A stretch of 64,000 bases of DNA from Erythrobacter aurantius (GTDB taxonomy: Bacteria; Pseudomonadota; Alphaproteobacteria; Sphingomonadales; Sphingomonadaceae), in the NCBI RefSeq assembly GCF_023823125.1, contig NZ_CP090949.1, forward strand, positions 744,001 to 808,000, in the 5' to 3' direction. Numbering within the stretch: position 1 is the stretch's first letter; each line of letters starts with the position of its first letter. Made by a program: the position numbers and the translations under genes. Shown one piece after another: positions 11,257 to 13,597 of the stretch. The notes under the pieces were generated by a model, which worked only from the letters and a program-made list of their open reading frames with translations, did no database searches and was not told the DNA's origin.

Positions 11257-12438
11257 TCAGTCTTCCACCGCGAAGCTGATCTCGGCGTGCTCCTGCAAGC
11301 GTTCAACCAGCGCTTCGCCAAGGAACGAGCCCGGCGTGCCGACGCCGCCTTCCGCCTTTGACGCCAGCAGCGCGATGCCCGTCTCGCTCAACATCCGGCT
11401 GGTCGAGCCATAGCCCGGATCGTATTTGCCCTTCACTCCGAAGTGCAGCGTGTCTTCGCCGCCGTCAGGCGCGTGTGCGACAAACAGCACGTCGTAGAAA
11501 CCGGTCTCGCGCTCTTCCTTCGTCGGGCCTTCGCCCGGCTTGGGCGGCTTGGCCCCGAACGGGTTCTTCATCATCTCGGCGGCGGCCTCGGCCATCTTCT
11601 TGCCCGCCTCGCCCGGACTGGTCAGCACCATTTCATCATACTTGAAGTCGGTGCCGTACGGGTGGCCCAGCAGGAAGTTGGTGCGGTGCACGTTCTTCGT
11701 ATTGATCGGCGCCATGACGAACGGCGCGGCCCATTTGTCGATGTCTTTCTCGTATTTGGGGATCATGCCTGATGGCTGGTCCGGCCCGGCAAAGCCCGGC
11801 GCCAGCGCAAAGGGATCGCGCAGCACATTGATGATAGAGGGGCTTTTCGCCGCCGCTTTCATCGTCGCGCCAAGGCTGGCCGCCGTCCCGCCCGAGAACG
11901 TCCCCTTCATCGCGCGCACGCGGCCACGGATGCGCGGCGACGGCTTGCCCCAGCGGGCCACCGCAGCTTTCTGCGTCATCATCACGCCCAGATCGAAGGG
12001 GATCGAATCGAACCCGCTGGAAAAGCAGATGCGCGCCCCGCTCGCCTTGGCGGCTTCGTGATGCTCGGCGATCTTGTCGGCCATCCATGCCGGTTCGCCG
12101 CACAGGTCGGCATAGTCGGTGCCGGTCTTGACGCAGGCCGCGACGAGGTTGTCGCCATAAAGCTGGTACGGGCCAACCGTCGTCAACACCACCTTGGTGC
12201 GCGCGCACATGGCTTCGAGATCGGCCGGATCATCGGCATTGGCGACAACCAGCGGCGTCGTTGCCGGAGCGCCGATTTCGTCGCGCACTGCCTCCAGCTT
12301 GGCAAGGCTGCGCCCCGCCATCGCCCATTTCGGCGCATCGTCGCGGCCCGCGTAATGCTGGTCGAGATACTCCGCCACAAGCCGCCCGGTGTAGCCGGTG
12401 GCGCCATAGACGATAATGTCGAATTCGGTATCAGCCAT
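11257..12438 (-). CDS. Saccharopine dehydrogenase-like NAD(P)-binding protein (trans-acting enoyl reductase family)
   Basis: 393 residues. N-terminal FDIIVYGATGYTGRLVAEYL is a Rossmann dinucleotide-binding motif of the saccharopine dehydrogenase superfamily; the length and the middle segment TDYADLCGEPAWM match the trans-acting enoyl reductase / membrane-lipid reductase branch rather than lysine metabolism. The likely role is reduction of a lipid or polyketide-like intermediate, substrate unknown. Read from the minus strand, its upstream region carries the TGTCAC array. Confidence 0.8.
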   Translation of the reverse strand: MADTEFDIIVYGATGYTGRLVAEYLDQHYAGRDDAPKWAMAGRSLAKLEAVRDEIGAPATTPLVVANADDPADLEAMCARTKVVLTTVGPYQLYGDNLVAACVKTGTDYADLCGEPAWMADKIAEHHEAAKASGARICFSSGFDSIPFDLGVMMTQKAAVARWGKPSPRIRGRVRAMKGTFSGGTAASLGATMKAAAKSPSIINVLRDPFALAPGFAGPDQPSGMIPKYEKDIDKWAAPFVMAPINTKNVHRTNFLLGHPYGTDFKYDEMVLTSPGEAGKKMAEAAAEMMKNPFGAKPPKPGEGPTKEERETGFYDVLFVAHAPDGGEDTLHFGVKGKYDPGYGSTSRMLSETGIALLASKAEGGVGTPGSFLGEALVERLQEHAEISFAVED

Positions 12439-12865
12439 TGTCCTATTCTCCTTTGCCCGCCGAGATGGGCGAGGGCAGTGCCGATGTCAAAGCCCCTGCC
12501 TCTGCGTTCTTGAGTTGCGCAGCCCCGTCCGGGGCTGCGTCCTCGCTTGGTGCCCGGCTGTTTGCCTACAGGGTGGAACGGGTGGAACACGGTCCAGAAG
12601 AAAAAACCCGCGATCTGTCACCTTTGAGGCCGAAACTGTCACTTTTCCCGCCAGGCTGTCACCCGCCAGCGGCAAAGTGTCACCCTTTGCCCCAAGAGTG
12701 TCACTCTTCGAGGGCGAAAAGTGTCGCCTTTCACGCGCTGAAGTGTCACCCTGAAACGGGCAGGATGCGGGTCGGGAAGCGGTCATTGCCACAGATTAAG
12801 CCAGATTTCGGCGGAGTAGGAAAATACCCGCTCAATTCTGGAGATGTCATTCCACACCGGCTCCC
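12439..12865. other. 427-bp gene-free region between two minus-strand genes
   Basis: No convincing gene. The right half (12616-12749) holds a phased TGTCAC array (separate entry). Open frames across it on both strands translate to seven-residue repeats (for example KGDTLPLAGD on the minus strand), which I read as a by-product of the 21-bp period. The left part (12439-12600) is the leader of the reductase gene, with no element I can name. Confidence 0.6.
12616..12749. repeat. Array of seven phased TGTCAC motifs, 20-23 bp apart
   Basis: TGTCAC occurs at 12616, 12637, 12657, 12678, 12699 and 12744, with TGTCGC at 12722; steps are 21, 20, 21, 21, 23 and 22 bp, about two turns of B-DNA. Several copies are the centre of an imperfect palindrome, for example AAGAGTG-T-CACTCTT at 12695-12709 and GGCAAAG...CTTTGCC at 12671-12690. 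Spacer sequences differ although they share A-rich ends (GAAA, CAAA). The pattern resembles an iteron or a multi-site operator, but no rep gene is near. Confidence 0.8.
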
Positions 12866-13597
12866 CTACGACTCGACATTGCGTTGATAGGTGTTCTGGA
12901 AATCGTCCTGCAGCACTTCGGTTTGCCCGCCCGATTCCAGCACCAGATCGGCTTCGAGAATGTCGATGCGAAATTCCCAGCCTTCGGGAAGTTCCAGCCT
13001 GTCGCTGAGACGATCGAGCTGGTCGATTGTCTGGCCGGGGGCGATCGCGCGGGTCGCGGATTGCATGGTGTAGACCTTTCCGTCTGGATCGATCAGGCGG
13101 TAAACCTTGGTTCCGGCAAGATAGGTGTAGATCGTATCGCGTGCGACCGTCGTGGGCCGATAAGGTTTGCGCGATAGCAGATCCCACAGCGAAAGCTCCA
13201 CCACCGCCGGGACAAGGAATTCGTGCCCGCCCAGCTCTCTGCGCGGTGTCACCCGATAGCTTTCGATCCGGTCAAGCACCCAGTAACGCCTGCCGTTGGG
13301 AATGACGAAGGACGCGCCCGAAGCCTGTTTGATCGCATCCAGATCAAGCGCGTCGAATTCCTCATCCGACATCACGTCATTGAGATCGTTGTAGACGATC
13401 ACCTTGACGCCGAACCACGAACGATAGCCCAGCAGCACTTCGTTATAGGGGATCGGCCTGCCGCTGTATCCGCCCAGCGTGTCGGACTGTTCGAACTCGG
13501 GGTAGGGAATGCTTTCTTCCGGCACGCCGCGCAGCAGGTAAAGCCCCCCGGCAAGCAGTGCGATCGCAATCAGGCCCAGAATGCTACGGCGGTTCAT
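12866..13597 (-). CDS. Conserved hypothetical membrane-anchored protein
   Basis: 243 residues. MNRRSILGLIAIALLAGGLYLLRG is an N-terminal anchor helix; the rest is soluble, probably periplasmic, with no cysteine pair and no enzymatic motif that I recognise. Start ATG 13597 was chosen because the anchor follows at once; the upstream extension to 13777 reads low-complexity sequence antisense to the next gene. It lies just downstream of a TauE-type exporter gene on the same strand (92-base gap). Function unknown. Confidence 0.7.
   Translation of the reverse strand: MNRRSILGLIAIALLAGGLYLLRGVPEESIPYPEFEQSDTLGGYSGRPIPYNEVLLGYRSWFGVKVIVYNDLNDVMSDEEFDALDLDAIKQASGASFVIPNGRRYWVLDRIESYRVTPRRELGGHEFLVPAVVELSLWDLLSRKPYRPTTVARDTIYTYLAGTKVYRLIDPDGKVYTMQSATRAIAPGQTIDQLDRLSDRLELPEGWEFRIDILEADLVLESGGQTEVLQDDFQNTYQRNVES

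Follow-up and report, generated by a model that had tools for sequence, protein, structure and literature searches.

A phased array of TGTCAC motifs in the genome of Erythrobacter aurantius (G000; 3,422,084 bp) is best explained, with a probability of roughly 45%, as a multi-site operator inside a translated leaderless leader ORF, which belongs to a dispersed family of cassettes and has a small helix-turn-helix (HTH) protein as its putative binder. This reading was derived from sequence comparisons that started from the window, i.e. the whole stretch of 64,000 bp analyzed (C1:744001-808000). As judged from its recurrent flanking motifs, the window array is one member of a family of small cassettes dispersed over the chromosome.

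The window array and its neighbors

The array (12616..12749, plus strand; GTGACA on the ORF strand) comprises six exact TGTCAC copies, at 12616, 12637, 12657, 12678, 12699, and 12744, and one TGTCGC variant (12722..12727, plus strand). The original prediction of seven phased TGTCAC motifs was exact with respect to phasing and steps (21, 20, 21, 21, 23, and 22 bp), but one of the seven units is the variant. The longest chain of exact copies with 19-24 bp steps in the 64-kb window had five members; when 200 sequences of this length were simulated with a first-order Markov model, the longest TGTCAC chain was one in 199 cases and two in a single case. The spacing is regular beyond chance, as expected for a multi-site operator.

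The neighbors agree with the original prediction, which named a minus-strand reductase gene downstream of the array and a membrane protein gene upstream. The downstream gene (11257..12438, minus strand) is saccharopine dehydrogenase-like with an NADP-binding domain (PF03435, 6e-14), and the upstream gene (12866..13597, minus strand) had no Pfam match at 0.001. An Rfam search with positions 12000-13300 of the window gave no match at E ≤1. What the earlier reading missed is that the array is located inside a minus-strand ORF (12487-12786), and that it is one copy of a dispersed family.

A family of small cassettes on the chromosome

The proposed genome scan for phased arrays gave a clear result: a pattern of three phased TGTCAC copies had 27 matches at 15 loci in the whole E. 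aurantius genome, and the reversed pattern had none. The spacing of the arrays was similar across these loci. Read on the minus strand, the cassette has the order TTTCCTAC motif, weak -10 motif, ATG about 36 nt further on, short ORF, optional GTGACA array, T-tract, and a conserved motif referred to as the head. The orientation of the array motif relative to the promoter motif was constant in all elements printed.

The TTTCCTAC motif, referred to as the tail (12816..12823, minus strand), is the candidate -35-like promoter motif of the cassette. It was present at 74 of 83 heads from four genomes (G000, Erythrobacter sp. NAP1 (G186), G168, and G116); three of the initial 86 loci (L142, L143, L171) had been dropped because a head was not recognized near the expected place. 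On the TGTCAC strand of the array the tail reads GTAGGA[A/C]A, and on the opposite strand T[T/G]TCCTAC. A weak -10 motif follows about 17 bp past the tail, and the ATG is mostly found 35-37 nt from the tail start; in the window, the sequence suggests TTAATC (12794..12799, minus strand), 18 bp after TTTCCT, as candidate -10.

Alignment of the loci revealed an A-rich stretch between array and head (12597..12609, plus strand; the T-tract of the ORF strand). The head itself (12566..12595, plus strand; C1:756566-756595) is a conserved motif of 30 bp that contains a direct repeat of 9 bp; the genome has 27 copies of the head at ≤3 mismatches, on both strands by eye. The consensus from 15 aligned loci is C[T/A]ACAG..TGGAAC...TGGAACAC.GTCC, followed by the A-rich stretch and the array. 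These 27 heads include 14 of the 15 array loci, at least two TGTCAC copies were found at 16 of the 27, and at the array locus at 903 kb the head carries an insertion. A role of the head as conserved peptide was ruled out, as it is read in all three frames. Likewise, TTTCCTAC and GTAGGAAA were considered as inverted ends of a transposon and rejected, since they are not regular on the head side in NAP1, G118, and G116. At the 2243 kb locus the array lies beyond the tail and not between head and tail, which argues against reading the array as operator of the cassette.

The span from tail to head was 210-281 bp in the 14 array elements with tail of E. aurantius, and 60-135 bp in array-free elements (n = 47), with 105-123 bp in 34 and 71-83 bp in nine of them. 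Helical phasing of the latter distances was absent (mean resultant ≤0.23 for periods of 8-14 bp, n = 47), a point against the operator reading. RNA structure was weak (mean z of -0.86 on one strand and -0.66 on the other, n = 38 array-free elements).

Several cassettes deviated from this scheme or had conspicuous surroundings. The array cassettes L058, L059, L061, and L062 (E. aurantius) and L047 (G118) have, by eye, a GGCTCTTT- or GCTCTTT-like sequence instead of an ATG, and may represent a second, non-coding class. The ORF in the tail-head interval of L053, L135, L168, and L186, from four genomes, resembles by eye the start of a phage-type lysozyme gene. At 1273 kb of E. aurantius (L065), an array cassette is located about 140 bp from a tRNA-like sequence.

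Candidate leaderless ORFs that stay open

The window ORF (12487..12786, minus strand, ATG at 12784-12786) comprises 99 codons plus stop, runs through array and head, and had no Pfam match at E ≤1. A gap of 48 bp separates its end from the start of the next gene; the two do not overlap. The distance from promoter motif to ATG would be compatible with a start codon at the 5' end of the transcript, and we consider the cassette ORFs as candidate leaderless ORFs. The pattern TTTCCTAC-N26-30-ATG was counted 27 times in E. aurantius, 27 in NAP1, 18 in G116, 10 in G135, 24 in G127, and 25 in N. guangzhouense, and its reversed form 1, 2, 2, 2, 2, and 2 times, respectively. The two-type head pattern gave 0 matches in G127 and G135, in which the promoter pattern is nevertheless frequent, so the leaderless promoter class appears to be wider than the cassette type of the window. 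Cassettes with this common promoter are located at core genes named by eye as ispG, lpd, rpsA, icd, trpA, and folP. In G127, an ORF of this kind near a ruvA-like sequence (L408) ends by eye in another 9-bp-repeat motif (residues GQCVRCVRC), which is perhaps a further head type.

Among the array-free cassettes with tail from six genomes, 60 of 78 had an ATG at 33-38 nt and 18 had none; the ATG frame was open to the head in 60/60 cases, the other two frames in 18/60 and 31/60. For array cassettes with tail, the corresponding values were 33 of 43 with and 10 without ATG, with the ATG frame open to the head in 26/33 and the other frames in 1/33 and 5/33. Thus, the frame is kept open in the cassettes compared. 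By genome, the open array ORFs amounted to 9/9 in E. aurantius, 2/2 in NAP1, 6/7 in G118, and 9/15 in N. guangzhouense; the six N. guangzhouense ORFs that close before the head, the closed ORF of L367, and the cassettes without this ATG argue against an operator in an open ORF.

At least 13 of the 74 cassettes printed have an ORF that runs into the start codon of the following gene, by ATGA (L069, L070, L074, L075, L078, L080, L081, L146, L175, L188), TAATG (L076), or GTGA (L066, L182). Translationally coupled leader ORFs are likewise short and end at the next start codon; unlike in these, it is a frame-independent nucleotide motif that is conserved here and not the peptide.

A nucleotide motif kept inside the frame

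The fate of the TGA within the motif was followed in 18 Erythrobacter-type array ORFs with ATG, with a unit defined by at least five of six motif matches and a neighbor 19-24 bp away. TGA was kept in 74 of 80 out-of-frame units vs three of 12 units in which it would be an in-frame stop (Fisher p = 1e-6), and all three belong to the closed ORF of L367. The TGTCGC of the window, where the standard motif would give an in-frame TGA stop, is one of the changed stop-frame units. Of the 83 units in N. guangzhouense, only one has its TGA in the stop frame; this unit has kept it, a point against the operator reading. Owing to the variable spacing, the motif can appear both as GDT and as VT within one and the same ORF; the residues are therefore not what is kept. 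The nucleotide motif is conserved independently of coding, as expected for an operator, and amino acid conservation of a repeat peptide was not found. An expressed ORF with a seven-residue repeat and codon-level constraint had been named as a finding that would speak against the original prediction; half of this applies, as the candidate leaderless ORF avoids in-frame stops, but its residues are not conserved. Together, these observations suggest that selection acts on the motif as DNA or RNA while the surrounding frame remains open, and the regular spacing near two helical turns favors the DNA level.

Action of the array in the mRNA has an appreciable though low probability. The GGUGA in AAGGGUGACA is Shine-Dalgarno-like, and the array would then pace or stall ribosomes and control polarity or coupling to the next gene. 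The retention of the motif in two frames of a translated ORF, its invariant orientation relative to the promoter motif in all printed elements, and the overlaps with the next start codon described above are all in line with such a function; however, a regular spacing of 20-23 nt is unnecessary for pausing, many cassettes do without an array, and the Shine-Dalgarno likeness is a reading by eye.

Distribution in relatives

The three-copy array also recurred in relatives, as anticipated: it was found in four of 100 genus genomes (G000, G118, G186, and G130, with no head at the G130 match) and in four of 99 family genomes, one per genus. The two-head-type pattern was present in 33 of the 100 genus genomes. 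Within a genome the head type is nearly uniform; in NAP1, 29 of the 31 listed heads have one 21-bp sequence, and 19 heads in N. guangzhouense match the TTTACACGG type at ≤3 mismatches. Arrays of TGTCACCTTG are frequent in N. guangzhouense and N. naphthalenivorans. A collection-wide scan gave at least 80 matches, mostly in unrelated organisms; 14 of these loci were inspected, seven of which contained head and array (L201, L214, L223, L224, L244, L259, L265), with a tail in view in six of the seven.

For the window locus, 30 loci were fetched from relatives, 26 of which were readable. A tail was located ≤420 bp upstream at 12 of the 26 orthologous loci (E. aurantius included) and was not seen at 14. 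Ten of the 12 had other head sequences with, by eye, TGTCAA-, TGTAAC-, or TGTCAC-like pairs. The coordinates place a head about 130 bp from the orthologous gene in G118 and NAP1, and the G118 copy contains six array units. From the tails with other heads and the copies in G118 and NAP1, the cassette appears to predate the long array at the window locus.

Many loci are common to genomes with different head types, and loci both with and without the cassette were observed; neither a clean boundary nor a target duplication was identified at these. It is quite unlikely that the cassettes are MITE-like mobile elements, with the HTH cassette being autonomous, the short ones internally deleted, and the arrays serving as putative sites of the mobilizing protein. 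Such an origin would fit the promoter motif and head common to complete and short forms, the loci with and without cassette, and the similar array spacing in E. aurantius. It is at odds with the interiors of array-free cassettes, which do not align whereas the ends do, with the sharing of many loci between genomes of different head types, with the maintenance of open frames, and with the failure to identify a target duplication.

A putative HTH binder

In complete cassettes, a small HTH gene of the terminase-small-subunit family adjoins an array and a head of its own. The ORF preceding the array codes for a small HTH protein in L244, L281, and L385 (Novosphingobium-type; translated) and in E. 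aurantius (C1:3270984-3271172), and, by eye, also in L311 and L318 (Novosphingobium-type). The HTH protein matched phrog_4044, terminase small subunit, at 6e-7, and two larger relatives did so at 6e-16 and 5e-24; Pfam gave weak or borderline HTH matches. In the predicted structure (mean pLDDT 72.9), the helices are modeled with confidence and the tail is disordered. Among solved structures there was no sequence relative at E ≤1, and a Foldseek search with the model gave none at E ≤0.001, with the small terminases of PaP3, NV1, and Sf6 at E values of 3-7; the missing structure match speaks against the operator reading.

Related small HTH genes amount to 2-5 per genome in eight genomes, 30 in total. 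In five of the eight, a terminase-large-like sequence follows one such gene (by eye; whole ORFs for NAP1 and E. aurantius, Pfam for NAP1). At C1:204780 of E. aurantius (L476) and in NAP1 (L461), a terminase small-subunit-like gene precedes a terminase large-subunit gene (identified by Pfam in NAP1); these gene pairs are a prophage or gene-transfer-agent cluster. Eight of 21 small HTH genes from five genomes are located ≤600 bp from a head, with 0.27 expected. A profile of the small form ranked genes from G197, G118, G186, and G000 first (166.9 to 78.2 bits); its best four of the 30 genes were one from each of the four array-bearing genomes among the eight, in a small set and with a profile built from repeat-bearing proteins. 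The other four genomes have no three-copy array, and the fifth match, from array-less G135, scored 66.6 bits vs 78.2 for the weakest of the four, which argues against the HTH-array pairing. An adjoining terminase small subunit gene, as at a pac site, is found in complete cassettes, and none lies beside the window copy.

It is very doubtful that function resides in the peptide and its repeat of roughly seven residues. The ORFs are open and stop-avoiding, and a homologue search gave 37 proteins; all 26 that were read among the other 36 had at least one QGD heptad, a count biased by a query that carried the repeat. QGD is the array read in one frame, and its presence is also in line with the operator reading. 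Both the GDT and VT readings within one ORF and the reading of the head in all three frames are difficult to reconcile with a conserved peptide.

Discussion

We prefer the reading of the array as a multi-site operator for the HTH protein. The small HTH protein would cooperatively bind the phased TGTCAC sites on the same face of the DNA, possibly in the form of a ring around which the DNA wraps. Such binding would tune its own cassette and other array cassettes, the leader ORFs of which overlap in some cases with the start codon of the next gene. The motif kept within the ORF would probably provide a strip of binding sites for this regulator, a relative of phage packaging proteins. The multi-site protein-binding array of the original prediction agrees with the recurrence, the spacing of about two turns, the motif kept in two frames, and the link with an HTH gene, but is incomplete in that the array does not stand alone. 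By extension, the downstream gene (11257-12438) may be regulated by the array; by eye it has a likely promoter of its own and a ribosome site nearer by.

In published accounts of small terminases (PMC4737164, PMC6854486), the HTH domains sit on a ring, and direct repeats are found in the pac region, at the gene for the terminase. The HTH domain of a related phage small terminase was reported to have little sequence specificity for its repeats (PMC4737164), which speaks against an operator, and the two accounts also report that a gene-transfer-agent small terminase binds DNA non-specifically. Complete cassettes resemble the SPP1/SF6-type pac region (PMC4737164) in direct repeats at a small-terminase gene and in the terminase-small-subunit-type HTH protein, whereas the cassettes as a family are dispersed over the chromosome and mostly without terminase genes. 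The likeness to ring-forming small terminases with HTH domains leads us to favor a putative operator for the HTH protein.

REP/BIME and Rickettsia palindromic elements occur in many intergenic copies with lineage-specific sequence, some of them compatible with open frames. The cassettes share these properties but differ by their own promoter motif, candidate leaderless start, phased arrays, and linked HTH gene. Plasmid iteron arrays are short repeats about two helical turns apart, as are the arrays described here, which are in contrast chromosomal, dispersed, inside ORFs, and without an initiator gene seen adjoining. A function as plasmid-type replication iterons or segregation site, which the original prediction had allowed for, is hardly credible, as the similar spacing and a TGTCAC array adjoining, by eye, partition- and replication-initiator-like ORFs at L258 are opposed by 15 chromosomal loci inside cassettes, by the lack of a partition or initiator gene seen beside the window array, by the absence of a plasmid match for this array (near records may be left out), and by the failure to find support for an iteron or ParB-type role at the window locus.

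In the titles and opening lines of abstracts of the open-licence literature, the cassette was not recognized. A far-reaching and improbable extension is that domesticated terminase small subunits run chromosome-wide pac-like sites in Sphingomonadales. A ring of HTH proteins would wrap DNA at TGTCAC arrays, a lineage-specific head code with 9-bp repeat would mark about 20-35 loci per well-sampled genome, and the array code would be written in nucleotides through leader ORFs; such sites may couple the expression of core genes to the structure of the chromosome, or even to gene-transfer-agent packaging.

The arrays clearly illustrate how a nucleotide motif can be conserved irrespective of reading frame within translated sequence. 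With a head code that differs between lineages and is near-uniform per genome, the cassettes are suited to a test of regulator-site co-evolution. If the operator reading is true, they would constitute a regulatory layer for which no description was found, common to Erythrobacter relatives and Novosphingobium, and phage terminase small subunits may have found a second career in it.
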